DNA of 64,000 nucleotides. It comes from Bolinopsis microptera. Taxonomy: Eukaryota > Ctenophora > Tentaculata > Lobata > Bolinopsidae. The translations under genes and the position numbers were made by a program. The stretch is from assembly GCF_026151205.1 (NCBI RefSeq), contig NC_087075.1, forward strand, positions 4,066,359 to 4,130,358, in the 5' to 3' direction. The stretch's first letter is position 1; every line of letters begins with the position of its first letter. Under the pieces are notes generated by a model. It did not search any database. It was not told where the DNA came from and was given only the letters and a program-made list of their open reading frames with translations. Of this stretch, positions 10,562-56,914 are shown piece by piece.

Positions 10562-11521
10562 GTGCAAGTACCGCCTTTTTTCAACTGCTTTAGATGTTTT
10601 AAAGGTTCTCATGATTGCGAGAGGAACAGAGTGCTGCACGAGACACTATCCAACATGAATACCCCTGCAGGATTTGTTTGGTTGTGTGATAAGTGTCATG
10701 ATATTGTTGATCCGATAGAACCCAGAAAACATAAGTCACGTCATAATTCTGGAACACTCCCTGCTGGGGATCAGTTTTCTGACAGCTCTAATGTCTGTAA
10801 TGACTTATCAAGCATTGCTCTCCAGAACGCTATATCGTCAACCCAATATGATCCCTCTCAAAACACACCTGAGCATCGTCCTCCTCCTCAAAACACACCT
10901 GAGAATCACGCTGCCCCATCCTCCAACGAAACTTGTCGGAATTTTCTAAATTGGAACTGCCCCCACGGTATGAGCGGGAAGAAGGAAGTTAGTGGGAAAT
11001 GCTGCTCCTATATTCATCCCCGGGTGTGTAACCAGTTTCGCATGTCTGGGACGACAGGTAGAAAGGGTTGCAAAAAGGGCAAGAATTGTCCTTTCTTCCA
11101 TCCTGAAATCTGCAAAACTGCGCTTGACATCGGTTCATGTTCTAAAAAGGATTGTTCGAATTTTCACCCTCGCTCTGCTCGAAAGAAAAATAACAACAAC
11201 AACAACAACAAACCCAGCAGTGTCCCCCGAAAAGCGAAGCAGAAACAAAATGGTGCAAATCAGAACGTCAGCAATTCTGAATCGAGCAATTTTTTAGAGT
11301 TGCGAAACTTGGTCACGGGCATGGCGACCAAGTTAGAAGCGATGGAGAAGAAGATGAGCCAAGGTGCACCAGCGTGCCATCCTCACACGCAGCCAACTTC
11401 AGCTCTCCAAGCTCCCCCCACCATGATGTACCCGGCTCCAGCACCCCAGCCTATGATGTCTCTAGGAGTGCCCAGGCTACCGCCCCATCCCATGCCTTAC
11501 TCTCATCACTCCTTCTATTAA
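10562..11521 (+). CDS. LINE ORF1 protein with CCCH zinc fingers
   Basis: 319 codons. The N-terminus has a PHD-like pair of Cys motifs (CFRCFKGSHDC and WLCDKCHD, residues about 10-55). Residues about 120-200 hold a row of CCCH-type fingers: one around CPHGMSGKKEVSGKCCSYIH, then CKKGKNCPFFH (C-x5-C-x3-H) and CSKKDCSNFH (C-x4-C-x3-H). A low-complexity Asn/Lys/Pro stretch follows, a short helical segment (LVTGMATKLEAMEKKM) that could form a coiled coil, and a Pro/Met-rich end. ORF1 proteins bind the element's RNA; the CCCH array could serve that role. The ATG at 10562 is the first in frame before the Cys motifs. Its end overlaps the ORF2 start, so ORF2 translation may depend on reinitiation or frameshifting. 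Confidence 0.75.
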   Translation: MQVPPFFNCFRCFKGSHDCERNRVLHETLSNMNTPAGFVWLCDKCHDIVDPIEPRKHKSRHNSGTLPAGDQFSDSSNVCNDLSSIALQNAISSTQYDPSQNTPEHRPPPQNTPENHAAPSSNETCRNFLNWNCPHGMSGKKEVSGKCCSYIHPRVCNQFRMSGTTGRKGCKKGKNCPFFHPEICKTALDIGSCSKKDCSNFHPRSARKKNNNNNNNKPSSVPRKAKQKQNGANQNVSNSESSNFLELRNLVTGMATKLEAMEKKMSQGAPACHPHTQPTSALQAPPTMMYPAPAPQPMMSLGVPRLPPHPMPYSHHSFY

Positions 11522-14490
11522 ATGCGAGGAGCTTGAATCCGTCTGCGAATAGTGTCGGCAGATGGAAACTTAATGACCTTATTGGTCATGTTGAGGAAAA
11601 ACGAGAGTCAGGGCACTTGTTCCCCTTCATCGCGATTACGGAGTCCTGGTTAAAGTCATACTACAGTGACGCTCAACTCCAGATACCGGGCTACTCAGTT
11701 TCAAGATGTGATCGTAGCAAGAGGAGTGGAGGAGGTGTTCTTCTCTACTCATTGTCGTCTCTCCCAGTGTCAGCTTCAGAGTTTTACGACGACGGTACTT
11801 GTCAGGGGCTGTGCAATGTTTACCCATCTGCAAAGCTATTGGTGGCAGTCATCTACAGACCCCCTGATGCGAGCCTATCAAGCTTCTCAAAGCTTTTGGA
11901 TCACTTGGGGCACGCTATCGAAAACCTTGACAACGATTATGAGTTGTTCATAACAGGTGATTTCAACTTACCTCAGGTTGACTGGGGATCGCTTCAGATC
12001 CACAGCGGTGGGACATCAGAATCAAATTTATCGGCCCAACGCTTGTTAAACTTTATGTCAACCTACCTTCTTAGTCAAATGGTCAACGTGCCTACCAGAG
12101 GAAACAACATTTTGGACCTAGTTCTCTGTAACAATGACCGACTGATATCGGATGTTAAAACTGAAGCAACCGATATATCTGATCACGATATGGTCAGCGT
12201 CCTACTCTCCTTCAACCCTGGTGTGATGGAGGAGGCCCATGCTACATATCTTGATGAAATGAACTTTCGAGCATTAGATTTCAATCAAGCTGATTTTCCC
12301 CGACTGAATAAGGTTTTTGAAGCTATTGATTGGGATGAACTGAGAGATGCTGGTACGTTCGAGGAATTTCCTGCCAAGTTCACGGATAAAGTACTAAACA
12401 CGTGCATATCGAACATTCCCAAGAAACGACCTCCATCAGGCAAGCCTAAGCTCTACAATTCTCTCAGAAGACGGAAGTCTAAGCTTAAAACTCGTCTCTC
12501 CGCAGCAAGGTGCGCCGGTGACAATGCCCGAATCAAGAAACTTGAAGACGAGATCGGGCTGGTGTGCTATGAGATAAAGGAGGCCATAGTCAACCATCTC
12601 GAACAAGGTGAGAGGAGAGCGGTGGAGCGGATCAAAAGTAACCCCAAATATTTCTTCTCCTATGCCAAATCATTCTCCAAAGTGAAACACAACATTTCTA
12701 CCCTCCTGAACGACAATAAGGAACTAGTCACTGAACGGAAAGAACTCGCCAACATCCTTCAACAACAGTTCTGCTCCGTTTTCAGCGACCCTAACTGTCC
12801 CGACACAGCAGTCCCTACATTTGCGGTACCACCCCTTATCAGTAGAGACAATGACATTGTGTTAACACCTGATAGTATCATGGAAGCTATATCTGAAATT
12901 AAGCTAGACTCTGCCCCTGGACCCGATGGAATACCAGCTATTCTTCTCAAAAGGTGTGCTACCAGCCTTAGTGTCCCGGTTTATCTTATGTGGTCAGAGT
13001 CCATGTCATCTGGTATAGTGCCACGCTTCTACAAGACGGGTTATGTTTCGCCACTTTTCAAGAAAGGCAGTAGATGTGAAGCTGGAAACTACAGACCTGT
13101 CACTTTGACCTCCCACGTTGTAAAAGTGTATGAAAGAGTGATAAGGAAACATATGGTGGAGTATTTGGAAGCCAACAGTCTCTTGACCGATAAGCAGCAT
13201 GGTTTCAGAGCGAATAGGAGCTGCTTGACTCAAATGCTCGGCCATTTTGACGACATCTACGAAGGGTTTACTCGTGGTGAAGATACAGATTCTATATATC
13301 TGGATTACGCTAAGGCGTTCGATAAAGTCGACTTAAATCTTCTCATCCACAAGCTGGAAAAATATGGGTTTCATGGCAAGCTCATAGAGTGGATAAAGTC
13401 CTTTCTCTTTGATCGCGAACAAGTCGTGGTGCTTAATGGAGTTCACTCGGTTATCGCAAAGGTTTTAAGTGGTGTTCCCCAGGGAAGCGTTTTGGGGCCG
13501 CTTCTATTTATCTTGTTCATCAATGATCTAGAACAAGTAGTGGACTCATCTAGGGTGAGTTTTTTCGCCGATGATACTAGAGTCTCCAAACAGATTGGCT
13601 GTTTTGAAGACTGTCAGTTGTTACAAGAAGATATCTATAAGATTCTTGACTGGTCACGTAGCAACAACATGAAGCTTCACGAGCAGAAGTTCGAGCTGTT
13701 AAATCACCTCCATAACAGTAAGAGCTCATTCCCCGAACTACCCTTCTTTGCCGAAACACTGCGTTACAAAGTATCCAGTCAGGACATACTTTATCCTGTC
13801 GAAAACGTCCGAGATCTTGGAGTTATGGTTTCAAGTGATCTTAGCTGGTCGACACACATCGGCAACATGGTACCCAAAGCAAGGAGCACACTATCTTGGG
13901 TATTCAGTGTGTTCAAAACTCGCGACAAGACCGTAATGACTACTCTCTACAAGTCACTAGTAAGAAGCTTACTAGAGTATTGCTGCCCACTCTGGAGCCC
14001 TACCAAGGTGACTGAAATACAGCTGATAGAGGGGGTGCAAAGAACTTTCACCAGTCGTATTGGCGGTCTTCAACATCTCAACTATTGGGAAAGACTCGTA
14101 CAGCTTAAATTGATGTCTCTACAGCGCAGACGGGAGAGGTATATCATCCTGATGATGTGGAAGATTCTCCATAATGTGGTACCAAACTGCTGTGATATCA
14201 AATTCAAGGTGACCCCTAGACACGGGGATGTAGCTGTCATACCCTCATTGTCAAAGTCAAGTTCCTTACGCAACCAGTCACTGTACGACAGGTCTTTTGC
14301 AGTTCAAGGACCGAAGCTGTGGAACAAAGTGCCTCACACAGTAAAGGCTGATTCATCCTTTGACATGTTTAAGTGTAGTTTGTCGAACTTTCTTGCTTTG
14401 ATACCGGACAACCCTCCGGTCGCCGGCTACAGCTGCAGTTGGTCAAACTCACTGGTCGACTACTCGCCATCCAGGTGGTCAGATATCTGA
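11374..14490 (+). CDS. LINE ORF2: AP endonuclease and reverse transcriptase
   Basis: 1038 codons from the ATG at 11374. An APE-type endonuclease occupies about residues 50-285 with ITESWL, VIYRPPD, ITGDFNLPQVDW (near 190) and ISDHDMV (near 268), so the catalytic Glu, Asp, Asn and His residues are present. The reverse transcriptase follows (about 480-770): YRPVTLTS, the motif A stretch LDYAKAFDKVD (near 642), GVPQGSVLGPLLF (near 700) and the catalytic FADD (near 730). The C-terminal region (ARSTLSWVFSVFKTRDKTVM, LLEYCCPLWSP, YDRSFAVQGPKLWNKVP) is typical of the CR1/Jockey group. No stop or frameshift is seen, so the enzyme could be functional. The protein makes the nick and copies the element RNA at the target site. 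Confidence 0.9.
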   Translation: MPSSHAANFSSPSSPHHDVPGSSTPAYDVSRSAQATAPSHALLSSLLLLNARSLNPSANSVGRWKLNDLIGHVEEKRESGHLFPFIAITESWLKSYYSDAQLQIPGYSVSRCDRSKRSGGGVLLYSLSSLPVSASEFYDDGTCQGLCNVYPSAKLLVAVIYRPPDASLSSFSKLLDHLGHAIENLDNDYELFITGDFNLPQVDWGSLQIHSGGTSESNLSAQRLLNFMSTYLLSQMVNVPTRGNNILDLVLCNNDRLISDVKTEATDISDHDMVSVLLSFNPGVMEEAHATYLDEMNFRALDFNQADFPRLNKVFEAIDWDELRDAGTFEEFPAKFTDKVLNTCISNIPKKRPPSGKPKLYNSLRRRKSKLKTRLSAARCAGDNARIKKLEDEIGLVCYEIKEAIVNHLEQGERRAVERIKSNPKYFFSYAKSFSKVKHNISTLLNDNKELVTERKELANILQQQFCSVFSDPNCPDTAVPTFAVPPLISRDNDIVLTPDSIMEAISEIKLDSAPGPDGIPAILLKRCATSLSVPVYLMWSESMSSGIVPRFYKTGYVSPLFKKGSRCEAGNYRPVTLTSHVVKVYERVIRKHMVEYLEANSLLTDKQHGFRANRSCLTQMLGHFDDIYEGFTRGEDTDSIYLDYAKAFDKVDLNLLIHKLEKYGFHGKLIEWIKSFLFDREQVVVLNGVHSVIAKVLSGVPQGSVLGPLLFILFINDLEQVVDSSRVSFFADDTRVSKQIGCFEDCQLLQEDIYKILDWSRSNNMKLHEQKFELLNHLHNSKSSFPELPFFAETLRYKVSSQDILYPVENVRDLGVMVSSDLSWSTHIGNMVPKARSTLSWVFSVFKTRDKTVMTTLYKSLVRSLLEYCCPLWSPTKVTEIQLIEGVQRTFTSRIGGLQHLNYWERLVQLKLMSLQRRRERYIILMMWKILHNVVPNCCDIKFKVTPRHGDVAVIPSLSKSSSLRNQSLYDRSFAVQGPKLWNKVPHTVKADSSFDMFKCSLSNFLALIPDNPPVAGYSCSWSNSLVDYSPSRWSDI

Positions 14491-14540
14491 TGACCCTTCC
14501 GGCTCCACGGATGAACTCAACGAAGTAACGAAGTAAGTAA

Positions 14541-15284
14541 GGGATCGTTAGCTTATTCTCATTTCCTTTTCTTTACTTTAATCTGACATTGATGTTGTGG
14601 AAATAGTACATTTACAAACCTTGTACACATTAATTATTAATTATTAGAACTTATGTTTTGTTTTCATTATTCCTTCTTTGTAACTCTTACTGATGTTTCG
14701 TTTAATGTGCACTTCCTGCAATAAGAGAATAACTATGAGGAGTCGTCATGTCGGATAATAATAGAAACATGATCAGTTATATCACCATCGTGATCACAAA
14801 AGGGAATCAATTACCGTATTTTGTTAGGATTTACTGAAGTTTTTAGCCTCAGTTAATTCGATTGCCCAAAAAATGTTGACCGTTAACTTGCAGTGTTGGA
14901 TAGTTGACTTGCTTTTTATTTATAGCACCTACCACAGTATTAGGGAACATATTGAAGGGGAGATAACCATAATGTCCGTGTTTTTTTTGCATTTTTCCAT
15001 TTTGGCTCCCTTTCAGGATCAGTTTAAATCTCTAAAAGAGGGTGCAACGTGCTGTAACCCGAGCGGCTAATCTTTAAATTCAATTAAAAGAAATATTGCA
15101 CTTTAGCTCGGGCCTTGATTATCGTTCACACTGTTTTTTATTGCGATCCACTGCCTAAGTTCTGTTGTGTTGTTTTATACTCGACGCGTATACTAAAACT
15201 ATTAGTTACCTTTAAAAGAATTGTGAGGATCCAAATTGGCCACCATTTATGTACCAACTGTTCTAACTAACTTGCAATCTAGGC
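14541..15284. promoter_or_regulatory. 5' flank and probable 5' UTR of metalloproteinase copy A
   Basis: From about 15014 onward (AGGATCAGTTTAAATCTCTA) the sequence is shared with the flank of copy B at 31886-32156, so the duplicated unit begins here, roughly 270 bases before the start codon. Before 15014 the two flanks are unrelated. Conservation includes AGCTCGGGCCTTGATTATCG and AAATTGGCCACCATTTATGT. No TATA box is convincing. Positions 14541-15013 show nothing else that I can support. Confidence 0.5.
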
Positions 15285-18200
15285 ATGCTACAAGTGGCTA
15301 GGCAATTGTCAGTTTTACTGCTTCTCACTTTGAGAGGAAGTGCACTTCCGTTACTAAGTTCCCTGAAGTGTTTGAACGAGAACGATGGGGACGAGGACTG
15401 TTATTCTTCTTTTGATGAGGGTAAGTTTGATTAAATGGGGGCGAGGGATGTTATTCTTCTTTTACTGAGGGTAAGTTTAATTAAATGTGGGCGAGGGGTG
15501 TTATTCTTCTTTTGATGAGGGTAAGTTTAATTGAATGGGGGCGAGGGGTGTTATTCTTCTTTTGATGAGGGTAAGTTTAATTAAATGGGGGCGAGGGGTG
15601 TTATTCTTCTTTTGATGAGGGTAAGTTTAATTAAATGGGGGCGAGGGATGTTATTCTTCTTTTACTGAGGGTAAGTTTAATTAAATGTGGGCGAGGGGTG
15701 TTATTCTTCTTTTGATGAGGGTAAGTTTAATTGAATGGGGCGAGGGATGTTATTCTTCTTTTGATGAGGGTAAGTTTGATTAAATGTGGGCGAGGGATGT
15801 TATTCTTCTTTTGATGAGGGTAAGTTTAATTAAATGGGGGCGAGGGTTGTTATTCTTCTTTTGATGAGGGTAAGTTTAATTAAATGGGGGCGAGGGATGT
15901 TATCCTTCTTTTGATGAGGGTAAGTTTGATTAAATGGGGGCGAGGGATGTTATCCTTCTTTTGATGAGGGTAAGTTTGATTGAATGGGGGCGAGGGATGT
16001 TATCCTTCTTTTGATGAGGGTAAGTTTGATTGAATGGGGGCGAGGGATGTTATCCTTCTTTTGATGAGGGTAAGTTTAATTAAATGGGGGCGAGGGATGT
16101 TATCCTTCTTTTGATGAGAATAAGTTTAATTAAATGGGGGCGAGGGATGTTATCATTCTTTTGATGAGGGTAAGTTTAATTAAATGGGGGCGAGGGATGT
16201 TATCCTTCTTTTGATGAGGGTAAGTTTGATTAAATGGGGGCGAGGGATGTTATCCTTCTTTTGATGAGGGTAAGTTTAATTAAATGGGGGCGAGGGATGT
16301 TATTCTTCTTTTGATGAGGGTAAGTTTGATTAAATGGGGGCGAGGGATGTTATCCTTCTTTTGATGAGGATAAGTTTAATTAAATGGGGGCGAGGGGTGT
16401 TATTCTTCTTTTGATGAGGGTAAGTTTAATTAAATGGGGGCGAGGGATGTTATTCTTCTTTTACTGAGGGTAAGTTTAATTAAATGTGGGCGAGGGGTGT
16501 TATTCTTCTTTTGATGAGGGTAAGTTTAATTGAATGGGGCGAGGGATGTTATTCTTCTTTTGATGAGGGTAAGTTTGATTGAATGGGGGCGAGGGATGTT
16601 ATCCTTCTTTTGATGAGGGTAAGTTTAATTAAATGGGGGCGAGGGATGTTATCCTTCTTTTGATGAGGGTAAGTTTGATTGAATGGGGGCGAGGGATGTT
16701 ATCCTTCTTTTGATGAGGGTAAGTTTAATTAAATGGGGGCGAGGGATGTTATCCTTCTTTTGATGAGGGTAAGTTTAATTAAATGGGGGCGAGGGATGTT
16801 ATCCTTCTTTTGATGAGGGTAAGTTTAATTAAATGGGGGCGAGGGATGTTATCCTTCTTTTGATGAGGGTAAGTTTAATTAAATGGGGGCGAGGGATGTT
16901 ATCATTCTTTTGATGAGGGTAAGTTTAATTAAATGGGGGCGAGGGATGTTATCCTTCTTTTGATGAGGGTAAGTTTGATTGAATGGGGGCGAGGGATGTT
17001 ATCCTTCTTTTGATGAGGGTAAGTTTGATTGAATGGGGGCGAGGGATGTTATCCTTCTTTTGATGAGGGTAAGTTTGATTGAATGGGGGCGAGGGTTGTT
17101 ATCCTTCTTTTGATGAGGGTAAGTTTAATTAAATGGGGGCGAGGGATGTTATTCTTCTTTTGATGAGGGTAAGTTTAATTAAATGGGGGCGAGGGGTGTT
17201 ATCCTTCTTTTGATGAGGGTAAGTTTGATTGAATGGGGGCGAGGGATGTTATCCTTCTTTTGATGAGGGTAAGTTTAATTAAATGGGGGCGATGGATGTT
17301 ATCCTTCTTTTGATGAGGGTAAGTTTGATTGAATGGGGGCGAGGGATGTTATTCTTCTTTTAATGAGGGTAAGTTCAGATATATATAAACACTCTGTATT
17401 TAAAAGAAAAGTATGGTATCTTGGATGCAATTAGTTACGACTAGCATAATTAATTGTAGCGTAGTAAATTACTGGATCAAACTATTGATTACGATTCAAA
17501 TGTGGTCTCTCGGATATAATTAGTTACGAATAATATTGATTGCTCAATGAAATAAATGATTACGATTAAAATGTGGTATATAAGTCGTTCGTTTTTGGTG
17601 AAGTATTATCAGTTGCCATCATCAACAACAACAACTATTCCAATTCCTGACATGGTACTCTTCTGTCTAATGGACGAAATTAATGGACCCACCGCCTCCC
17701 TAGAGAATGCTAGAGACTTCCTATTCCAGAAAAACCTCCTAAAGAGCTCCATGTCCTGTCCTGGGTGTAATGCATCTATGTCCCTGGTTCCCTGCTCGTC
17801 CTCGAATACTGTTATTATACAGTAATATGATCTGGTAGACAGTGGTCCGCAGACAGTGGTCCGCGGACAGTGGTCCGCGGACCAGTGGTCGGGCTATCTC
17901 GATACTGCCGAAAAGTGTCCAGTTATGTTTATATTTCTTGATGAAATAACCAAATATAAGTAACTTAATATCTTTATTAATATTGATAATCTGTAAATTC
18001 AGTTGCGCTGGATTTGCGGGCTTTCGGCTCGTCCATTGAGAGTTTAGCACAGATACAGAAAGCTGGAGTACGACCCTTTGACAGTAAGTAATTAGTTGCT
18101 TTGATAATTTGACGTGTGTAAGTAATTAGTTACTTCGATAATTAGACGTGTGTAAATCTCACATTTCATTTTAATCATTCACGTGTTAACTATCCCGATT

Positions 18201-21200
18201 AGACAGGCTAATTAATAACTTTAGCACTCCTCCAAGAAGACCTTTCATAACTTACTAAATACCCCCTTTCAGTCGAACAGGATACCCCTGAACCAACTAA
18301 AAAACTTACTCTGAGATTATTAGAAACAGCTGTAGAACAGGAAACTAGCTTATCAAAAAGCCCAATAGTAAGTGATCAATAATCGTAAGTAATAAATAAT
18401 TGGCAAAAGGTAGATGGTTTGGTTGGAGGCTTATGTTTTTGCTGTATAGCATTTTAGTCACTCCGCAGTTCATTAACGGTGTCTCAACTCTATAAAATGG
18501 CGAAATTGAGACTTAGCTACCGATTATCACGAAACTTGTCATACATTTCACAGTTTCTGCTTGAATACAAAATTGGTCATCTATACTGATGCATAAAATA
18601 TGCCCTGAATGTTATTATTCTACAGGGTTATTTAACAAAGTACGGGAACGTGAAGGTAACCAGGTAACCAGGTAACCAGGTAACCAGGTAACCAGGTAAC
18701 CAGGTAACCAGGTAACCAGGTAACCAGGTCACCAGGTAACCAGGTAACCAGGTAACCAGGTAACCAGGTAACCAGGTAACCATGTAACCAGGTAACCAGG
18801 TAACCAGGTAACCAGGTAACCAGGTAACCAGGTAACCAGGTAACCATGTAACCAGGTAACCAGGTAACCAGGTAACCAGGTAACCAGGTAACCAGGTAAC
18901 CAGGTAACCAGGTAACCAGGTAACCAGGTAACCAGGTAACCAGGTAACCAGGTAACCAGGTAACCAGGTAACCAGGTAACCAGGTAACCAGGTAACCAGG
19001 TAACCAGGTAACCAGGTAACCAGGTAACCAGGTAACCAGGTAACCAGGTAACCAGGTAACCAGGTAACCAGGTAACCAGGTAACCAGGTAACCAGGTAAC
19101 TGCAGGTAACCAGGTTACCAGGTAACTGCAGGTAACCAAGTATGAATGTTATTATTCTACAGGGTTATTTAACAAAGTACGGGTACGTTAAGGGGGTGTT
19201 GAAGGTGATGAAGTCTTGTTCTGACTCAGATGATACTATCCGCTCTGCTGAGATACTGGCTTCTATGATTACATTCCAGAGATTTACCCAGTTAGTATCA
19301 TTCTAGGAAATGTGTGAAATGTGTTAGTTAAATTATGTGAAATTTAGTGCTTTTAAAATTTTTATAGAACCCAATCTTGTATATAAACAATGAGGGTAAA
19401 TTTAGAGGTTATAGTTCTTTCCTCCAAACTTCTATTTGATTAGCTTGTTTTGTGCAAACACAATATCAAAAAAGATAATACCTTAAAGTTTATACAAACA
19501 CACCCTTCACAGTGCAACTAACGTAGACATCTTCATAAAGATGAGCCATGCTCGATGTTCGGTCCCTGACATTAACTTTGACAGTGATGGCAACCTTGAT
19601 GAACAATCTGCAGAAATAATCTTATCTGCTGTTGAATTTGAAGGAACGGATAATCTTAAAGGTAAGCTTCTTTTTCAGCTCGCTTCACGGTCAGTTAGAT
19701 TTGCATTAAGTATGTATATTTGCGATTTGTATTAACTTTAAGTATAGGTTTGATTTGCATTAAGTATAGGTGTGATTTGCATTAAGTATAGGTGTGATTT
19801 GCATTAAGTATATGTGTGATTTGCATTAAGTATAGGTGTGATTTGCGTTAGGTATAGGTGTGATTTTTCCCATAGCCCCCTTATTATTTTACATGTTATA
19901 TTCCTGTACAAAAACATAAATTTTCAAAAAAACGGAACATATCAAAATATGTTGATAGTGGTACTTCCTTAGACCAATAGATAAATAAAACTTACAGGGA
20001 ATCTACTGTAACAATTAAATATAACAAAAGTCAAATTTAAAAAATTAAATTTCTTACCAATTATTACAGAAAGAGTGGGAGAGTTCAGGAGTTCCCATGA
20101 GTCAAACAGAAGAAGGAAAAGGGCAGCAACTTCAAAAGGAACACTAGACCTGTCAGATAAAACTGAGTTTACCTACAATCTGATAAACAAGCCATCAGGG
20201 CAAAGCATGCCATTCGCTAATGATGGGGTTGATATTGCTTTTGAATCGTGGAGCAATGCAATAGGGCCTGCTGTGACCTTTATACGTACTGTAAGTATCT
20301 AGTTCTTATCAGTAATTTACTAGAATGAAAGGAGACTCTCATTCAGTATTATAAGTCGAGCATTATTCTTTTAGAACCCCATTTCTAAGTCTTATAGTAT
20401 ATTATAAAAACACCGTAAGTAAAATAAATGTACTCAATGAATGTGTGCCAAAAGATCAAGAATCTTAGGATACTCCTTCAGAACATCTACATTGTAGTGT
20501 ACTGTAAAACAAGGGCGGTCGAACTATTCGATGACCCTGTAGAGGAATCTACAAACTTTACAAATTATACAAATTATAACTATTAGTAAAATTAATGCAT
20601 TACCTCTCAGACTAGTCAGAAACCAGATGCTAAGTTAGAGTTCGTTGCAGATGAACACAATGATTATACTTTTGATGGAGACGAACTTGCTCATGCTCCC
20701 TTCCCTTCTAGCGAATATCATGGCAGTGTAAGTTATGCCTTTATATTATTATAGTGACATCAATCTTCAATAACATCGTTTACTTTGTTACGCTTATAAA
20801 AAGTTCCTTTTTGTTTAGTAGAGCACTTGAACCCGAGAAACAAACACTTTCGTAATGTAATGACATCTATAGACCATAGCCAATATGAACGAAATTACAA
20901 AACTCATCTACATCTATACAAATTAATTGTGCTGTTTTAAACCCTCCAACATGACTCCAATTATTCATGTGCTCATTTTTGATTAATATATGGCAGACGA
21001 TGAAATGACTCTAAGATAATAGTAATATTCAATAACTATAGTAAGTTCAGGTTCACTACAGAGCAAACAGAGTTTGGGAAGTTAATGCAGACGACAAAGT
21101 GGATTTCATCTACGTAACCGTTCACGAGCTGGGACATTACCTTGGTATGATTATTACGTTATTATTTATTTATAGTTATCACTAATTATTCATTAATTAT

Positions 21201-24200
21201 GTATTACCGATATATTATTAATCACTTGTATTTATACTCCCTCAAGCGAACTGGATAATCTGATAATGGATAATTTATAGCGTTTAATGATATAGGTTAA
21301 TACTAGATATATGTTTCACAAGCAAATTGTTAGCCCTTTCTCATAAGCTTATTTATATTCCACAGGGTTGAGACACTCTAGTGTAGATGATTCGGTGATG
21401 CTTTCTATATTGGACTCCACCACCATACCAGAGTGAGTTACAAAGTCAATGAAAATAATAGTTGCAAGAATCAGTAAAAAGAGCTAAACAAAGCAAAATT
21501 TCCATTTAAAGTTTTGGAGAATATAACAAGTTTAAGAGTTTGTTAATTCTCAGAGATTACAACGGAGAGTTACATGACTCAGATATTCTGGCTGTTAAGC
21601 TACTGTACGCTGGCCAGGGTGAGCGCACATTTGTAAAGCAGATTATACGTTATTATTAGTTTATTAGAGGTACTGTCTACAACAGTTCAACCAACAATAC
21701 AAGCCCCTCACTGTAACCCTCTTTAACCCCCCCCCCTGTAAGTATTAACCTCCCTGTTACTCCCCCCTGTAAGTATAAACCTCCCTGTTACCCCCAATGT
21801 AAGTATTAACCTCCCTGTTACCCCCCCCTGTAAGTAATAACCTCCCTGTTACCCCCAATGTAAGTAATAATCTCCCTGTTACCCCCCCCCCTGTAAGTAA
21901 TAACCTCCCTGTTACCCCCCCCCTCCTGTAAGTAATAACCTCCATGTTACCCCCCTCCTGTAAGTAATAACCTCCATGTTACCCCCCCCTGTAAGTATTA
22001 ACCTCCCTGTTACCCCCAATGTAAGTATTAACCTCCCTGTTACCCCCAATGTAAGTAATAACCTCCATGTTACCCCCCTCCTGTAAGTAATAATCTCCCT
22101 GTTACCCCCCCTCCTGTAAGTAATAACCTCCATGTTACCCCCCCCCCCTCCTGTAAGTAAAAACCTCCCTGTTACTCCCCCCTGTAAGTATTAACCTCCC
22201 TGTTACCCCCAATGTAAGTAATAATCTCCCTGTTACCCCCCCTCCTGTAAGTAATAACCTCCATGTTACCCCCCCCCCCCTGTAAGTAATAACCTCCCTG
22301 TTACTCCCCCCTGTAAGTATTAACCTCCCTGTTACCCCCAATGTAAGTATTAACCTCCCTGTTACTCCCCCCTGTAAGTAATAACCTCCCTGTTACCCCC
22401 AATGTAAGTAATAATCTCCCTGTTACCCCCCCCCCCCCCTGTAAGTAATAACCTCCCTGTTACCCCCCTCCTGTAAGTAATAACCTCCATGTTACCCCCC
22501 TCCTGTAAGTAATAACCTCCATGTTACCCCCCCCTGTAAGTAATAACCTCCATGTTACCCCCCTCCTGTAAGTAATAACCTCCATGTTACCCCCCTCCTG
22601 TAAGTAATAACCTCCATGTTACCCCCCCCTGTAAGTATTAACCTCCCTGTTACTCCCAATGTAAGTATTAACCTCCCTGTTACCCCCCTGTAAGTATTAA
22701 CCTCCCTGTTACCCCCCCCCCTGTAAGTAATAACCTCCCTGTTACTCCCCCCTGTAAGTATTAACCTCCCTGTTACCCCCAATGTAAGTAATAATCTCCC
22801 TGTTACCCCCCCTGTAAGTAATAACCTCCCTGTTACCCCCAATGTAAGTAATAATCTCCCTGTTACCCCCCCCCTGTAAGTAATAACCTCCCTGTTACCC
22901 CCCTCCTGTAAGTAATAACCTCCATGTTACCCCCCTCCTGTAAGTAATAACCTCCATGTTACCCCCCTCCTGTAAGTAATAACCTCCATGTTACCCCCCC
23001 CCCTGTAAGTAATAACCTCCCTGTTACCCCCCCCTGTAAGTATTAACCTCCCTGTTACTCCCCCCTGTAAGTATAAACCTCCCTGTTACCCCCAATGTAA
23101 GTAATAATCTCCCTGTTACCCCCCCTCCTGTAAGTAATAACCTCCATGTTACCCCCCTCCTGTAAGTAATAACCTCCATGTTACCCCCCTCCTGTAAGTA
23201 ATAACCTCCATGTTACCCCCCCCCCCCCTGTAAGTAATAACCTCCATGTTACCCCCCTCCTGTAAGTAATAACCTCCATGTTACCCCCCCCCCCTGTAAG
23301 TAATAACCTCCCTGTTACCCCCCTCCTGTAAGTAATAACCTCCATGTTACCCCCCTCCTGTAAGTAATAACCTCCATGTTACCCCCCTCCTGTAAGTAAT
23401 AACCTCCATGTTACCCCCCCCTGTAAGTAATAACCTCCATGTTACCCCCCTCCTGTAAGTAATAACCTCCATGTTACCCCCCCCTGTAAGTAATAACCTC
23501 CCTGTTACCCCCCCCCCTGTAAGTATTAACCTCCCTGTTACTCCCCCCTGTAAGTATTAACCTCCATGTTACCCCCCCCCTCCTGTAAGTAATAACCTCC
23601 CTGTTACCCCCCCCCCCTGTAAGTATTAACCTCCCTGTTACTCCCCCTGTAAGTATTAACCTCCCTGTTACTCCCCCCTGTAAGTATTAACCTCCCTGTT
23701 ACCCCCCCCCCCCTGTAAGTATTAACCTCCCTGTTACCCCCCTCCTGTAAGTATAACCTCCATGTTACCCCCCTGTAAGTATTAACCTCCCTGTTACCCC
23801 CCCCCTGTAAGTATTAACCTCCCTGTTACTCCCCCCTGTAAGTAATAACCTCCATGTTACCCCCCCCCCTCCTGTAAGTAATAACCTCCCTGTTACCCCC
23901 CCCCCCTGTAAGTATTAACCTCCCTGTTACTCCCCCCTGTAAGTATTAACCTCCCTGTTACTCCCCCCTGTAAGTATTAACCTCCCTGTTACCCCCCCCC
24001 CCCCTGTAAGTATTAACCTCCCTGTTACCCCCCTCCTGTAAGTAATAACCTCCATGTTACCCCCCTCCTGTAAGTAATAACCTCCATGTTACCCCCCCCC
24101 CCCCCCCCTGTAAGTAATAACCTCCCTGTTACCCCCCCCCTGTAAGTATTAACCTCCCTGTTACTCCCCCCTGTAAGTATTAACCTCCCTGTTACTCCCA

Positions 24201-27200
24201 ATGTAAGTATTAACCTCCCTGTTACCCCCAATGTAAGTAATAATCTCCCTGTTACCCCCCCCCCTGTAAGTAATAACCTCCCTGTTACCCCACCCCCCCC
24301 CTCCTGTAAGTAATAACCTCCATGTTACCCCCTCCTGTAAGTATTAACCTCCCTGTTACCCCCCCCCCTGTAAGTATTAACCTCCTTGTTACCCCCAATG
24401 TAAGTATTAACCTCCCTGTTACCCCCAATGTAAGTAATAATCTCCCTGTTACCCCCCCCCCCCTGTAAGTAATAACCTCCCTGTTACCCCCCCCCTCCTG
24501 TAAGTAATAACCTCCATGTTACCCCCCTCCTGTAAGTAATAACCTCCCTGTTACTCCCCCCTGTAAGTATTAACCTCCCTGTTACCCCCAATGTAAGTAT
24601 TAACCTCCCTGTTACCCCCAATGTAAGTAATAATCTCCCTGTTACCCCCCCCCCCCCTGTAAGTAATAACCTCCCTGTTACCCCCCCCTCCTGTAAGTAA
24701 TAACCTCCATGTTACTCCCCCCTGTAAGTATTAACCTCCCTGTTACCCCCAATGTAAGTATTAACCTCCCTGTTACCCCCAATGTAAGTAATAATCTCCC
24801 TGTTACCCCCCTGTAAGTAATAACCTCCCTGTTACTCCCCCCTGTAAGTATAAACCTCCCTGTTACCCCCAATGTAAGTATTAACCTCCCTGTTACCCCC
24901 CCCTGTAAGTAATAACCTCCCTGTTACCCCCCTGTAAGTAATAACCTCCCTGTTACTCCCCCCTGTAAGTATAAACCTCCCTGTTACCCCCAATGTAAGT
25001 AATAATCTCCCTGTTACCCCCCCCCCTGTAAGTAATAACCTCCCTGTTACCCCCAATGTAAGTAATAATCTCCCTGTTACCCCCCCCCCCTGTAAGTAAT
25101 AACCTCCCTGTTACCCCCCCCCCCCTCCTGTAAGTAATAACCTCCATGTTACCCCCCTCCTGTAAGTAATAACCTCCATGTTACCCCCCCCCCTGTAAGT
25201 AATAACCTCCATGTTACCCCCCTCCTGTAAGTAATAACCTCCATGTTACCCCCCCCCCCCCTCCTGTAAGTAATAACCTCCATGTTACCCCCCTCCTGTA
25301 AGTAATAACCTCCATGTTACCCCCCCCCCCTGTAAGTAATAACCTCCATGTTACCCCCCTCCTGTAAGTAATAACCTCCATGTTACCCCCCCCTGTAAGT
25401 AATAACCTCCATGTTACCCCCTCCTGTAAGTAATAACCTCCATGTTACCCCCCCCCCCCTCCTGTAAGTAATAACATCCATGTTACCCCCCTCCTGTAAG
25501 TAATAACCTCCATGTTACCCCCCCCCCCCCCCCTGTAAGTAATAACCTCCATGTTACCCCCCTCCTGTAAGTAATAACCTCCATGTTACCCCCCCCCCCC
25601 CTCCTGTAAGTAATAACCTCCATGTTACCCCCCTCCTGTAAGTAATAACCTCCATGTTACCCCCCCCCCCCCCCTGTAAGTATAAACCTCTTTGTTACCC
25701 CCAATGTAAGTAATAATCTCCCTGTTACCCCCCCCCCCCACTGTAAGTAATAACCTCCATGTTACCCCCCTCCTGTAAGTAATAACCTCCCTGTTACCCC
25801 CCCCCCCCCCCCCCCATGTAAGTAATCACCTCCCTGTTACCCCCCCCCCCCTCCTGTAAGTAATAACCTCCATGTTACCCCCCTCCTGTAAGTAATAACC
25901 TCCATGTTACCCCCCCCCCCCCCCCTGTAAGTAATAACCTCCATGTTACCCCCCCCCCCCCCCCCCCCATAAGTAATAACCTCCCTGTTATTTCCCCCCC
26001 CCCCTGTAAGTAATAATCTCTTGTATCCAGTATTATTCTCCCTTTATGAAGTTATTAATATCCTCTTGTATCTGCAGGACCTTCGAACTGTCCTGATGAT
26101 TGGCACAGATTTGAGGGAGTATGTTACATTGCTCACACAGTGTCAGCAGGAATTACCTGGGACGATGCACAAACCGAGTGTGAAGATATAGGTTAGTAAC
26201 CAGGTAACCAGGTAACCAGGTAACCAGGTAACCAGGTAACCAGGTAACCAGGTAACCAGGTAACCAGGTAACCAGGTAACCAGGTAACCAGGTAACCAGG
26301 TTCATTATCTTTTAAATTTAGTTTGTTGTTATCATATAATATACAATGTCAGTAAATATGTTCATGGATGAACTAATCACACTTTACCCAGGTGCAAGAC
26401 TAGCAACAGTCAGGAATGGTCCGTTAAACGTGTACATACTCGCAACAGTTGCTAATGGACGATCACCTTATTGGATAGGGTGAGATAATTTTTGTAATTC
26501 ACCAAAATGTTTTGAATCATTACTTTTTAATAAGACGGTTAAAAAGTTGTGTATAAAATGAAGGTTGGTGGGGGGGGGGGGGGGGGGCGGAATGTAGACT
26601 GATTATATTAACAACATGATGTGCTCAGGAGGAAATCCTCTGAAGATGGGTGGGTGAGTGGCGAGTCGTTTGACTGGTTCCCTGAGATTAATAAAGCTAA
26701 ACAGATGGACCCTTCCTCAACTAGGTGTCTTCGAGCTAGTGAGTTTATTGTTTGATTTATAAAGAAAACTCTTTTAAAACTCTTTTAAAGATTTTGAGCT
26801 GCATTTATGTTTTAACTTTAAGCTTTTAAGGCCATCCAACGTTGAGCCATATACAATTATATTTATTGAAATTTAGAAGCAAAAAGATACATTTTTCATT
26901 TCTTACTATATAATTATTTGCAGCTGCGTACAGTGGTAACCTTAGTAAACTAGTAACCTTAGTTACCTTAGTCACCACAGTAACCTAAGTAACCTTAGTA
27001 AGCTTAATAACCCTAGCAACTTTACAGCTGCGTACAGCGGTAGCGCAAAGTGGGAGTTTGTTCATTGCACGAACATAAAGAAAGCTAAGACAGAGCACTA
27101 CGTCTGTGAAAAGGTATTACCACATGTTTAGCTCTAACACAGGCCATCTTCTCCAGTAAACCAGGTAACCAGGTAACCGGGTGGTTACCTTTTGAGGCCA

Positions 27201-29922
27201 GGTAGCGCAGTTGGTTAGAACGCCAGCTTTACAATCGTGAGGTTGCGAGTTCAAATCCCACTGTCTGCCTGGTCGTTGACGTTCAGCTAAGGATCCTGAG
27301 TGGTCTATGCAGCCCCCGGTCTACTAAGCCGAATACTCGATAAATCGGGTGTGAGGGTTAAATGAGGAGCTGCACATTACAGCAAAGTCTCGGGCGAAGA
27401 AAGTATGGTACACACTACCTTAACCGTCACTGGCCAAATAAATCCTTCGGCTTCCTGTAATTGGCTGGTTACACATGTGTAACAATGTGGCTGTTGGAAT
27501 ACACCGAAGTAAAATAAGTGTCTTGATTTAAAAAAAAGGTGACCAGGTAACCAGGTAACCAGGTAACCAGATAACCAGGTAACCAGGTAACCAGGTAACC
27601 AGGTAACCAGGTAACCAGGTAACCAGGTAACTAGGTACCCAGGTAACCAGGTACCCAGGTAACCAGGTACCCAGGTAACCAGGTATACCCAGATTTCCTA
27701 AGAAGTTGTGTGTAATTTACACCACCTACACAGTAATACCCTCAGAGAGAAGAAGACTTTAAAGAGGTAACCACACCAACACCAACACCGGAGATAGTCA
27801 CCCAACCCAACACTGTGATGCCTACATTCGCACCTTGTCAGAACTACATCAGGTCAGATTGCTGGGGGGTTGGAGGAGGGGTACATGAATTATGGAACAT
27901 ACAATCTTATAATCATAAGGGGGGGAGGTCAATCAAACTGTTTGAAACAGATAATTGTATATACACATTACATGACAAATGACGCACCTGTCTCTGTAAT
28001 TAACATTGGTCACTGTCTCGCAGGGGTGCAATAAGACGCGGTAACTTCCTCTACATATTTGGTAACGCTAAATATTTCAAATATTTCTACACAAACTCCA
28101 GACCCACCCTGCAACCTGGGTACCCTAAAGACATTGCAGACAACTTCGAGGGGGTCAGTAGTGTAATGATACTTCACAAAGGATCCTTTATTACACAATT
28201 ATAAGAATCAGTTACCAATACAATTTATCTATTTATTATGTAGACACACTCATAATACAGTGGTGTTCATTAGATTGCGAACAATTTAAACTGATGTCAT
28301 AAGCTGTGACAATTTCAGATTCCACAATCCTTCTCAGCAGTTGTAACAAATCCTTATGACAGGAAAATGATTTACTTCATCGATGATCAGGAGGTGTACG
28401 AATGGAAAGTCAGGGGTAAATTATTACTTATTTGTTGTTGCTCCTACCTAATCTATATACTTATATATACCACGGACCACCGATATTGTATTTTAATGAG
28501 GTTACACTAGAGTTATTAATCCCGAGCAGCGTGGAACTATTCAGTGTTACACAATGCACTTCAGGAAAGAGAAGCTCCATAGAGGATGGTAAATTGAAGG
28601 AGCGCGGTAAAAAGAGCGGGGGTAAACCCAAGAAGCTGAAGAGCCTTTTTAAAACTACAAATGTTCTCCGTGGAGCTACAGTGTGAGTAATAAATTAATT
28701 AGTAATAATAATAATAAAATTAATTAATTGATATGGATTGGTTTTATAAAGTACCATTTTGATACTTTTCATTGCAAAACTTGAAACTGACCTTATTAAA
28801 CTTTGCTTCCAGAACCTCATTCAGGGCACCTTCTTAACAAATCTACAAATTTGAATAAAATATAACCACTTAAATATCACAGGTTCGACAGGAACAGTAT
28901 CATGTTGTTTGCCCGTGAAGAAGTAGGTAGGTGGTACAGAGAAACCATTAGTAAATCTAAGATGACGTTCCAGTCTTACTACGACACTGTGGACAAGTGG
29001 GACTACCTGGATAGCATGGGGTCATCTCCAATAGATGCTGTGACTCCTTCCTACTTTGAGAAGTTCATCATGTTCATCAGAAAAGACGTTAGTTTAGTTA
29101 AATTTAGTTGGTCTGCTTAATTTACTAAGAATTTTAGTAAGAATTATTGGCATTGTTTTTGAGGTAATGGGATGCAAATATGATCAATATGCAAATATGA
29201 TAAATAAGAAAATAAGGATGTCCACTGATTCCTTTTATCGCATCTCTCGAGTAATGCCATGGTGACACTACCATATAAGGTAATGTTGTCATGGTGACAC
29301 TACCATATAAGGTAATGTTGTCATGGTGACACCACCGTAGAAGGTAATGTTGTCATGGTAACACTACCATATAATTATAAGGTAATGTTGTCATGGTACC
29401 ACTACCATATAAGGTAATGTTGTCATGGTAACACTACCATATAAGGTAATGTTGTCATGGTAACACTACCATATTATAATGATGTCCACTGTTTCGTTAT
29501 ACCACATGTCTCACAGGAATATTTCTTGGTAAGAAAGTCCGATGGAAAGATACCGAGGAAGTTCATAAGGAATTTGTCGTCTGATTTCGATAAGGTATAT
29601 TTTAATTTATTTGTTGTTTCTTCACTCAAGCACTCAGGCACTGTGAATAATAACTGATGTAATAATGAATAAAGTAAAAACTGTGAATAGCAGAATTTGT
29701 ATGTTATTTCTAATTCTTGCACAATAACATCAAGTTTGTAATCTATCTATAATTTTCAATGTAATTAATGTCCATATATTAAGTTGACATTATGGTTTTT
29801 TTAATGATTGAATTAATGTTTACATAACACTTCAGCTCGAGATTTGCGACGTGATTGCCCCGTTCATAACTGAATATCCAGAAAACATCGACCCCGACCT
29901 AGCTATTTTGGAGGAGGAATGA
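15285..29922 (+). CDS. Matrix metalloproteinase with C-type lectin-like and hemopexin domains, copy A (21 exons)
   Basis: Exons: 15285-15420, 18003-18083, 18273-18367, 19163-19294, 19541-19661, 20070-20290, 20611-20727, 21051-21144, 21366-21432, 21554-21618, 26078-26191, 26392-26479, 26629-26738, 27028-27113, 27746-27852, 28024-28153, 28319-28415, 28565-28682, 28883-29087, 29517-29594, 29836-29922. They total 2349 bases (782 aa plus stop), all phases agree and all borders are GT-AG. Signal peptide about 1-20 (LSVLLLLTLRGSA); propeptide with YLTKYGYVKG and the cysteine-switch variant ARCSVPD (Cys154); furin site RRRKR (202-206); catalytic domain about 207-376 with DGDELAHAPFP, HELGHYLGLRH (His326/330/336, Glu327) and Met344. 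A six-Cys C-type lectin-like domain fills about 377-509 with YWIG but no EPN/QPD or WND, so calcium-dependent sugar binding is doubtful. A Thr/Pro hinge follows, then a hemopexin domain from about 540 to 782, closed by Cys540 and Cys758. It should be a secreted, zymogen-type extracellular-matrix protease. The exon model is mine and lacks transcript support. Confidence 0.88.
15421..17368 (+). repeat. About 39 x 50-bp minisatellite made from the exon 1/intron 1 junction
   Basis: The unit is GTAAGTTTRATTRAATGGGG followed by GCGAGGGATGTTATYCTTCT and TTTGATGAGG. Its second half copies the last 30 or so bases of exon 1 and its first bases copy the donor GTAAGT, so every unit carries an intact 5' splice site. 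Reading on past the first donor meets a TAA or TGA within one unit, so only splicing at 15421 gives a full protein. Copy B has just two such units (32257-32352). Confidence 0.95.
17411..17915 (+). mobile_element. Merlin/ISXO2-like DNA transposon fragment in intron 1 of copy A
   Basis: Absent from the matching intron of B. It is bordered by GAAAAGT on both sides (left within AAAAGAAAAGTA, right after ...GATACTGCC), a 7-8 bp duplication. An internal frame from 17652 (MVLFCLMDEINGP, ARDFLFQKNLLKSSMSCPGC) looks like the N-terminal zinc-ribbon region of IS1595/Merlin transposases; this match is from memory and moderate. Near the right end lie repeated GTGGTCCGCGGAC blocks and the end sequence GGTCGGGCTATCTCGATACTGCC. 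Copy B carries a relative of this element in intron 3, in which the same end sequence is at the other end. Confidence 0.45.
18606..18654 (+). repeat. Duplicated start of exon 4 with its acceptor site
   Basis: GAATGTTATTATTCTACAG plus GGTTATTTAACAAAGTACGG duplicates the real intron 3 acceptor and first exon 4 bases found at 19145-19182. The duplicate runs directly into the AGGTAACC satellite, so the array sits between two copies of the exon start. In copy A the decoy acceptor AG is intact. Confidence 0.9.
18655..19139. repeat. (AGGTAACC)n satellite, intron 3 of copy A
   Basis: An 8-bp unit repeated for about 485 bases with a few CATGTAACC and TGCAGGTAACC variants. Each CAGGTAACC unit resembles a 5' splice site (CAG/GTAA). 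The long reading frames of the type TWLPGYLV across it are translation artefacts of the repeat. Confidence 0.95.
19705..19862. repeat. About 22-bp tandem repeat after exon 5, copy A
   Basis: ATTTGCATTAAGTATAGGTGTG is repeated about six or seven times starting roughly 45 bases after the exon 5 donor. B has a shorter version at 39212-39304. Confidence 0.85.
21727..26019. repeat. 4.3-kb minisatellite in intron 10 of copy A (TGTAAGTAATAACCTCCMTGTTACCCCCC)n
   Basis: About 150 units of roughly 27-32 bp, variable mainly in C-run length and in CTCC/AATG variants, fill nearly the whole intron. Each unit includes TGTAAGTAATAA, with a consensus-like splice donor GTAAGT. Copy B has only a remnant of this tract at 49544-49612. 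Higher-order blocks are visible: segments with the same order of variants recur. Confidence 0.95.
26192..26300. repeat. (AGGTAACC)n array starting at the exon 11 donor, copy A
   Basis: The donor itself (GATATAG/GTTAGTAACCAGG) merges into the 8-bp array, so the repeat begins at the splice site. The same arrangement is present in copy B at 49792-49850. Confidence 0.95.
26914..27027. repeat. Intron 13 repeat with duplicated exon 14 start, copy A
   Basis: TTTGCAGCTGCGTACAGTGG at 26919 is a near copy of the true exon 14 boundary TTTACAGCTGCGTACAGCGG at 27021. Between them lies a GTAACCTTAGTAAC-type repeat of about 80 bases. B has the same structure at 50478-50640, with an extended repeat. Confidence 0.85.
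27160..27690. repeat. (AGGTAACC)n array in intron 14 of copy A, split by a SINE
   Basis: Repeat units lie at about 27163-27185 and 27539-27686, interrupted by the SINE. In copy B the array at 50769-50957 is uninterrupted, giving the empty site. Confidence 0.9.
27196..27538 (+). mobile_element. tRNA-derived SINE
   Basis: The 5' head at 27196-27274 folds as a decayed tRNA: acceptor strands GGCCAGG and CCTGGTC can pair over 7 bp, box A is TAGCGCAGTTGG, box B is GTTCAAATC, and the anticodon-loop position reads TTTACAA. The anticodon stem is degraded, so it is not a working tRNA gene. A body of about 250 bases without similarity to anything else in the window follows, ending in a run of A at 27530-27538. 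Polymerase III transcription from boxes A and B is expected for such elements. It is present in copy A only. Confidence 0.8.
29263..29474. repeat. About 33-bp tandem repeat before exon 20, copy A
   Basis: Units of CATGGTAACACTACCATATA plus AGGTAATGTTGT are repeated six to seven times. Copy B carries about ten units at 52600-52946. CATGGTGACACTACCATAT contains a partial palindrome. Confidence 0.9.
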
Positions 29923-30482
29923 ACATTTCCAACTCCTGTTTGAGCATTCAACAGACCTGATGAATCATTTATAGAGTTTTATAATTTATAATTTTTTGAA
30001 ATTGATTTTTAAGGGGTTTATATTTTATCTGTTTTGATTTTCTATTGCTGTGAGTCACGTTTTGCACCAAATGATTTTACTATATTTGATCCTGTTTATA
30101 TTTGATTTATAATGGTTTACAATTTTTATATTTATTGGTTATTGTTAAGACAGACAACACTCTAGTTTTTATTCTGCACCAAATTGTGTCCATATTTCTA
30201 GTAAGTTCTTTATTGAATTGAGTTGCAGAATAATTATTAAATCATATAAACAAACGGACAAGGTGCTATATATCGGATATAAGTATAACTGAGGAAAATT
30301 AAATGTTGGGACACTATATCTCATTCTCACCAAATGGGCGTGGATGATGAATGTGATCTGCAAACTGATCTTCTTACATGATTCACATCCTGGGACGAAA
30401 CACTAACAAATAGAATAGTTTCAAATTTGTCCAGCGGCTGGTCGTTCTATCAAAAATTAAGTAGTATTAATATTATAAACAG

Positions 30483-31375
30483 TTGATTCACAATGTCAAT
30501 CCTTCGCAATCGCAGCTCGGCGAGGCCCATTGGTGCATTTCGCCTATCTACCGAAGTTGCGAGGCCCAGTAGACTAGGCAGTAGTGCATCACGCTACAAT
30601 AAAAACAATTGCAAAATAAAGAGCACAAATGAATTAACAATGCAATATAGTATAAATATAATGTATAGCATAGCCCCTCCGATCCCGGATTGCAACATTG
30701 CGGCTGTGTTAGTGTTACGTCTACCGCTACGATCAAAATGATTGCCGCGCTAACAAAATATGTATTATTCTTAGCAAAATATTTTAATTTGCCATGTTAT
30801 GATCTATTTGCAATAGTGCGCGCGATGATGCAAATATTTCATATATAAGGAGGCATGATGAATATTTTACTTGGGGACCCCATGCAGGCTATTAGTATTA
30901 TGTTCATAAACATAAAGATTCGGCGGAATGACACTGACAGGCTGAGCGCCGCCCAGTAAGTGTATCAAATATTGTGATATGAAAAATTTGCCATCTTAGT
31001 AAAATATCCACTAAACGCTCGATCGAACGTAACACGCGTAAAAAAATATTCGCCTAGCCTTATTAATTTTATAATTTGCGCCTGGGTTGTGCGGGTATAA
31101 CTGTAAATTGCGTATTTTTAGCAAAATATTCGCCATGTTACGAATATTATATATATGATTAAATTGCATAACATGTAAAGTTCAAATATAGTTTTTGATT
31201 TTGAGCTCGAAACCAATCAAAAATATTAATTTAGTTATTTATTTGTAGCGCGATGCACTACTGGGTCGCGCGCGCATCAAATATTAATAATGCTTCTCGC
31301 AACCTTCGGTAGATCGGCGAAATGCACCACTGTGTACGTCTCACCAAGCTGCGAAGGATTGACATCGTGAATCAA
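30483..31375. mobile_element. 893-bp TIR element downstream of copy A
   Basis: Left end TTGATTCACAATGTCAATCC and right end GGATTGACATCGTGAATCAA form a long inverted repeat that continues about 110 bases inward (GGTGCATTTCGCC, ATCTACCGAAG, CAGTAGTGCATC). No transposase is seen; ORFs inside (30493-30741) are made of the TIR. Downstream of copy B (about 53893-54100) the interior sequence is present but the long TIRs are missing. Confidence 0.75.
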
Positions 31376-31620
31376 GTTATTTATTTACTTTTATGATTGT
31401 ACCTAGCCTAAAATTGCACAAAAAATCGGTTATACTATTATATGTTTTGTAATCCAAAAATCATCATCAGAATGGTAAGACGTGATTTTATATTTAAAAA
31501 TACAAGCTGATGTCTTTATTATAAAATTATAATAATGTTTGATTTTAAAGTGTATACTACTAAAAGAACTTTTTGCTTAAAAGCAAAGAACTGTAAATCA
31601 AATAGTGTCGGTGATCATAA

Positions 31621-32156: not shown

Positions 32157-53378
<21,222 letters not shown>

Positions 53379-56874: not shown

Positions 56875-56914
56875 CGTTGCTTTCTAAGATGGTATTTATA
56901 AAAGTTTTTATTTA

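Follow-up and report, generated by a model that had tools for sequence, protein, structure and literature searches.

A ctenophore gene in two tandem copies predicted to join an M10 metalloproteinase, a C-type lectin-like domain and a hemopexin-like tail

Background

In the usual frame of a matrix metalloproteinase (MMP), an M10 catalytic domain is followed by a hemopexin domain. Across these families a switch cysteine blocks the catalytic zinc, furin removes the propeptide and hemopexin domains bind substrates; the furin-activated secreted MMPs (family M10A) form a defined class, and the gelatinases MMP2 and MMP9 carry fibronectin type II repeats inside the catalytic domain. A C-type lectin-like domain (CTLD) set before the hemopexin-like tail is not a standard MMP layout. 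Such an arrangement had been proposed, in an initial annotation, for a gene of the ctenophore Bolinopsis microptera, which raises the questions of whether the three domains belong to one gene, whether that gene is maintained, and what a CTLD in this position might do. Here we address these questions for a 64-kb window at C4:4066359-4130358, the whole stretch of DNA that was analysed; coordinates are positions within it unless a contig is given.

Results

A 21-exon gene with three recognised domains

The gene, copy A, occupies 15285-29922 on the plus strand, with its ATG at 15285 and its stop codon ending at 29922. The initial annotation had both of these coordinates exactly and also counted 21 exons; its reading frame of 782 aa is corrected here to 790 aa. 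The exon models of this copy and of the second copy described below were fitted by hand to splice sites and reading frame, and that of copy A was compared with copy B as a control; all 20 introns of copy A are GT..AG. The features are as follows.

15285..15420 (+): exon 1, signal peptide (by eye) and start of the propeptide; splice model
18003..18083 (+): exon 2, propeptide; splice model
18273..18367 (+): exon 3, propeptide; splice model
19163..19290 (+): exon 4, propeptide; splice model
19513..19661 (+): exon 5, propeptide including the cysteine-switch-like motif; splice model
19550..19570 (+): ARCSVPD cysteine-switch-like motif, residues 160-166; motif scan, exon table
20070..20290 (+): exon 6, furin-type site and start of the catalytic domain; splice model
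20108..20122 (+): RRRKR furin-type site, residues 210-214 (RRKR 211-214); motif scan, exon table
20611..20727 (+): exon 7, catalytic domain; splice model, Pfam
21051..21144 (+): exon 8, catalytic domain, with HELGHYLG, the first part of the zinc site, from 21123; splice model, motif scan
21366..21432 (+): exon 9, LRH, which closes the zinc site (to 21376), followed by the Met-turn; splice model, motif scan
21554..21618 (+): exon 10, end of the catalytic domain; splice model, Pfam
26078..26191 (+): exon 11, beginning of the CTLD; splice model, Pfam
26392..26479 (+): exon 12, CTLD, with WIG; splice model, motif scan
26629..26738 (+): exon 13, CTLD; splice model, Pfam
27028..27113 (+): exon 14, end of the CTLD; splice model, Pfam
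27746..27852 (+): exon 15, Thr/Pro-rich hinge and C548, first Cys of the hemopexin-like part; splice model, motif scan
28024..28153 (+): exon 16, hemopexin blade 1, as recognised by Pfam; splice model, Pfam
28319-28415, 28565-28682, 28883-29087, 29517-29594, 29836-29922 (+): exons 17-21, rest of the hemopexin-like part, Lys-rich insert and closing C766; splice model, motif scan

A second, tandem copy follows on the same strand. It was absent from the initial annotation, as were the further M10 genes with added modules that are considered below.

32157..53378 (+): gene copy B, intact tandem copy, 21 exons, 791 aa; splice model, Pfam, comparison of A and B
49678..50722 (+): copy B exons 11-14, CTLD; splice model, Pfam

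Pfam recovered the proposed order of M10, CTLD and hemopexin in both spliced proteins, with every match above the curated cut-off: Peptidase_M10 (E=1.4e-28 in copy A, 2.1e-27 in copy B), Lectin_C (5.3e-8 and 2.4e-7) and Hemopexin (2.5e-5 in each). The check put forward with the initial annotation, recovery of M10 and Lectin_C in one transcript model, thus came out in its favour. With the M10 match of copy A running from position 4 to 159 of the 159 in the profile, the catalytic domain is complete and uninterrupted, and the CTLD lies behind it. Sequence searches of the PDB gave stromelysin-2 as the top match for the N-terminal half (E=1.4e-14), matches including lymphocyte antigen 75 (CD205) and the mannose receptor for the CTLD, and vitronectin and gelatinase A for the hemopexin part.

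The zinc site and Met-turn reported earlier are present: HExxHxxGxxH lies at residues 334-344 in copy A and 332-342 in copy B, followed in both by SVM, and the Met-turn methionine, counted on the spliced sequence of copy A, is Met352. The cysteine-switch-like motif reads ARCSVPD against the consensus PRCGxPD, with R, C and VPD kept and the first P and the G changed. Together with the furin-type site and a signal peptide called by eye, this propeptide with its switch-like cysteine is in keeping with the secreted zymogen that had been proposed. Residues 1-216 had no Pfam match at E<=10 and hence none to a PG_binding_1-type prodomain. Such a prodomain does not appear to be obligatory for MMPs, since in the available text of a review of echinoderm MMPs (PMC8467561) it is missing from some of them; variation in the cysteine switch is described there as well.

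Six cysteines (389, 400, 419, 485, 502 and 515) and a WIG at 450 mark the CTLD. As had been noted before, the sugar-binding motifs EPN/QPD and WND are absent from it, and the motif scan found this in both copies; the WND position reads KWEF, and the sole match, QPN at 537, falls in the hinge outside the domain. Cysteines 548 and 766 bracket the hemopexin-like part, of which blade 1 alone is recognised by profile: blades 2-4 gave no profile match, and the last 192 aa had no PDB sequence match at E<=10.

No fibronectin type II match was listed by Pfam at E<=1, so that the defining feature of gelatinases was not found. The Reprolysin (M12B) models reached just E 0.14-0.2, under their cut-off, and disintegrin was not listed at E<=1. 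NCBIfam returned six matches under cut-off, five to metallopeptidase models and one to a polycystin model. A search for relatives in a viral collection gave no match, and Rfam (at gathering threshold) and tRNA scans of the 64-kb window found nothing.

Two copies and the selection between them

When the stretch 14501-31500 was compared with the window, homology formed one block per copy (approximately 15.0-31.5 kb and 31.9-54.2 kb). All 20 introns of copy B are GT..AG, with phases identical to those of copy A; this agreement in splice sites and phases is partly by construction, because the models were fitted by hand. The two proteins differ at 41 amino acids, with dS 0.075, dN 0.026 and dN/dS 0.345 (Fisher p=4.3e-6). 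Exon indels between the copies are whole codons in three of three cases. Of the 20 introns, 14 were short enough for alignment; in these, 12 of 40 indels are multiples of three and 28 are not. Given this dN/dS and these whole-codon exon indels, most of the joint frame looks to be under purifying selection.

The constraint is unevenly distributed. Using rounded counts for the Fisher tests, we obtained dN/dS 0.34 for the catalytic part (p=0.036), 0.19 for the CTLD (5.5 nonsynonymous against 7.5 synonymous changes, p=0.0015), and no nonsynonymous against eight synonymous changes in the hemopexin-like part (p=2.4e-6). Exons 1-3, which encode the N-terminal propeptide (15285-18367 in A, 32157-32797 in B), have a dN/dS of 1.35, without constraint, and carry a higher share of nonsynonymous changes than the remaining exons (p=1e-4). 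Exons 1-3 are relaxed or diversifying and the remainder is constrained. Chance would not leave a copy B with all 21 exons and the three Pfam domains, nor the purifying selection seen when the two copies are compared.

Repeats and mobile elements around the gene pair

Several repeats lie in and around the two genes. In copy A, 15385-17375 consists of about 40 copies of a 50-bp unit that corresponds to the last part of exon 1 and the adjoining splice donor (GAGGGTAAGT); in copy B about two of these exon 1 units are present (32257-32356). The donor-site minisatellite may complicate splicing. Arrays of an 8-bp unit, AGGTAACC/GTAACCAG, occupy introns of both copies (18654-19142, 26196-26301, 27537-27685, 36168-37556 and 50768-50966); some lie directly next to an exon end. 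The unit is similar to a splice donor, and the lengths of the arrays differ strongly from one copy to the other.

Reading frames that resemble reverse transcriptases by eye, apparently of non-LTR type, were seen at 11281-14490 and 59782-61215 on the plus strand and at 33357-35366 and 46440-47792 on the minus strand. The latter two lie within introns 3 and 8 of copy B; the equivalent introns of copy A are short. A single open frame of 508 aa at 55357-56883 (minus) has no Pfam match at E<=1 and is BTB-like by eye only.

One gene or two, and two genes or two alleles

The model could be wrong in two ways: an M10 protease (exons 1-10) might have been joined to an adjacent, separate CTLD-hemopexin protein (exons 11-21), or the two copies might be alleles of one gene set in tandem by the assembly. 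The junction at issue in the former case is intron 10, which is long and unlike between the copies (4459 bp in A, 1510 bp in B). Also, the legend of a figure on Mnemiopsis counts hemopexin among the domains that occur together with CTLDs and names ZnMc in another panel, as far as the available text goes (PMC11797021). The sequence upstream of exon 11, however, speaks for continuity: read back in frame, it meets a stop that starts 22 bp before the exon in both copies (26056 in A, 49656 in B), with no start codon between that stop and the exon in either. Intron 10 of copy B has ten ATGs, none of which, judged by eye, could plausibly begin a signal-peptide exon. In copy A, the two stretches taken as common to B hold one ATG (26046); over the whole intron a fitting donor exists for 36 of 76 ATGs, and those listed lie within minisatellite sequence of this intron. 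Intron 10 thus appears to hold no convincing alternative first exon, and M10 followed by hemopexin is in any case the usual MMP frame. Having examined stops, phases and candidate first exons in this intron, we judge the joining of two genes to be very unlikely. Exons 1-21 look like a single translated and mostly constrained reading frame, and the presence of M10, CTLD and hemopexin in one gene is, on the predicted exon structure, very probable.

That the copies are alleles has more in its favour, although we regard it as the less probable reading. Identity is 96.5% in exons and 92.2% in alignable introns, the homology amounts to one block each within the compared stretch, and heterozygosity may be high in animals of this type. 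Against this, A and B lie on one chromosome-scale contig, retroelement-like frames are found in two introns of copy B only, array lengths differ, and a dS of 0.075 is in our judgement high for alleles. Neighbouring pairs are also seen among other M10 matches in the genome (C3:9379771 with 9385912; C5:16758609 with 16781262). We treat A and B as two genes.

Other M10 genes of the same genome

Sequence comparison places this genome close to Mnemiopsis among the ctenophores: a stretch of one of its glutamate receptors is identical at 96 of 118 positions to ML032222a, a Mnemiopsis receptor of solved structure (E=9.7e-61), and outside this protein and the ctenophore protein 4zdm the best match reaches 1e-15. 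A second receptor ranks its matches alike. A profile search of the same genome, with the best candidates kept, gave 37 exon-level M10 matches at E<=0.001, and nine ORFs were profile-tested in all. L001 has M10 and Hemopexin, with repeats recognised by Pfam, in one ORF with a PRCGVPD switch. L005 (G000:C9:9306461-9309916), likewise a single ORF, has M10 and PG_binding_1, then EGF and Sushi, above cut-off; a hemopexin-like tail was seen there by eye only. L009 (1157-4189, minus) and L010 (1975-3810, minus) are single ORFs with M10 and CUB (M10 2e-35 and CUB 3.8e-31 in L009; CUB 3.5e-19 in L010), in which a Thr-rich hinge and CUB follow the catalytic domain of an MMP in a tolloid-like arrangement. 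In the five further ORFs M10 stands either alone or beside PG_binding_1 or other metallopeptidase models. As single ORFs, L001, L005, L009 and L010 have domain layouts free of any splicing guess. A further M10 group (L012, L013 and L014) has long upstream reading frames, near which cysteine-rich repeats and hemopexin-like pieces were seen by eye in neighbouring frames.

From the layouts of L005, L009 and L010 it follows that modules were added behind M10 on several occasions, or on a single one followed by exchange. In a tree of catalytic domains, built from 13 of 17 sequences with four short ones left out, the module-bearing genes cluster with support of 81/85 and a long-branch warning, which is too weak for a verdict on common origin. 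Additionally, an acidic stretch, IHFDNDE in L001, which we take to have a calcium-binding role, reads VHYRANR in the window gene, and its loss may leave the fold less stable or differently regulated.

When the whole spliced protein was compared with its own genome, the CTLD exons were matched in the two window copies only, among 60 matches; one L005 match reaches query residue 400, inside the CTLD, yet L005 has its EGF match there. None of 52 Lectin_C matches (E<=10) lay less than 0.8 Mb from any of the 37 M10 matches, in a weak search that went exon by exon, retained just the best candidates and did not recover even the window genes. Similarly, tblastn of loci L001-L028 with the CTLD and hemopexin parts as queries gave no match at E<=0.1, in a search weak enough to miss L001 despite its Pfam hemopexin repeats.

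Discussion

Comparison with known systems

With the furin-activated secreted MMPs the window gene shares a signal peptide (by eye), a propeptide with a switch-like cysteine, an RX[K/R]R site, M10, a hinge and a hemopexin-like tail; it departs from them in the CTLD between catalytic domain and hinge and in its ARCSVPD switch. MMP2 and MMP9 likewise place an extra ligand-binding module on an MMP, but their repeats interrupt the catalytic domain, whereas the CTLD comes after a complete M10. L005, L009 and L010 also have recognition modules behind M10; these are EGF with Sushi, or CUB, instead of a CTLD, and they are encoded in single ORFs, not in 21 exons.

Metalloproteinases with C-type lectin-like domains are known from other families. 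In P-IIId snake venom metalloproteinases such as RVV-X, lectin-like domains have been proposed as a distant protein-binding exosite, in the text available to us (PMC4885070); there, however, the enzyme is M12B and the lectin-like parts are separate disulfide-linked chains, as opposed to M10 and one chain here. Astacins that carry a CLEC domain, as given in a review (PMC9848320, available text), combine a metzincin and a CTLD within one protein, but are M12A, and that paper does not contain the word hemopexin. The echinoderm MMP review gives standard architectures, and no word beginning with lectin occurs in its available text (PMC8467561). The nearest likeness is within the same phylum: the legend of Fig. 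3d in a paper on the Mnemiopsis leidyi genome gives HX among the domains combined with CTLDs, although no metallopeptidase is named in the legend to that panel and the available main text has no metalloprotein- words (PMC11797021). The Mnemiopsis protein may be an orthologue, perhaps already drawn there unremarked. Among the matches listed from the open-licence literature, as far as their text was available, there was no statement of a protein with M10, CTLD and hemopexin.

A model for the role of the lectin-like domain

We propose, as the account that seems to us moderately probable, that the gene encodes a secreted furin-activated MMP in which a CTLD devoid of sugar motifs serves as a protein-binding exosite. 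The propeptide cysteine would cap the catalytic zinc until a furin-like protease, acting within the secretory pathway, cuts after RRRKR. In the released enzyme, the CTLD, the hemopexin-like domain and the Lys-rich insert would together form an exosite on which substrates dock. Since it lacks the sugar-binding motifs, the CTLD would most likely bind a protein, or a glycan through a non-canonical surface, and the substrate range would be narrowed. By analogy, a CTLD exosite on a metalloproteinase would have a precedent in RVV-X, whose lectin-like part is described in the available text as a distant exosite (PMC4885070). The CTLD of the window gene would then be one of several recognition modules behind M10 catalytic domains in this ctenophore genome.

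Two other roles deserve consideration. The complete set of six cysteines, the WIG core and the presence of mannose-receptor CTLDs among the PDB sequence matches would suit a genuine Ca-dependent lectin, through which the protease is directed to a glycan. EPN/QPD and WND are nevertheless missing from the CTLD of both copies, with KWEF at the WND position, and CD205, which matches best, does not belong to the classical sugar binders either; a lectin of this kind is thus an unlikely reading. Somewhat more doubtful still is the view of the CTLD and hemopexin parts as passive spacers, or as an addition now in decay, on an enzyme that works as an ordinary MMP. The loss of canonical ligand motifs and the hemopexin blades 2-4, unrecognisable by sequence, might be read in this way, but the dN/dS of 0.19 in the CTLD and the hemopexin-like part, in which none of eight changes is nonsynonymous, show good conservation of these parts between the copies. 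The protein-binding exosite is the role that we prefer.

Conclusions

The M10 genes that this ctenophore has on its chromosome-scale contigs include L001 and three module-bearing kinds, represented by the window gene, L005 and the pair L009/L010. With this set, the age and early diversification of the family become testable, and the one-chain fusion of a CTLD to an M10 protease would provide a natural model for exosite-guided proteolysis.
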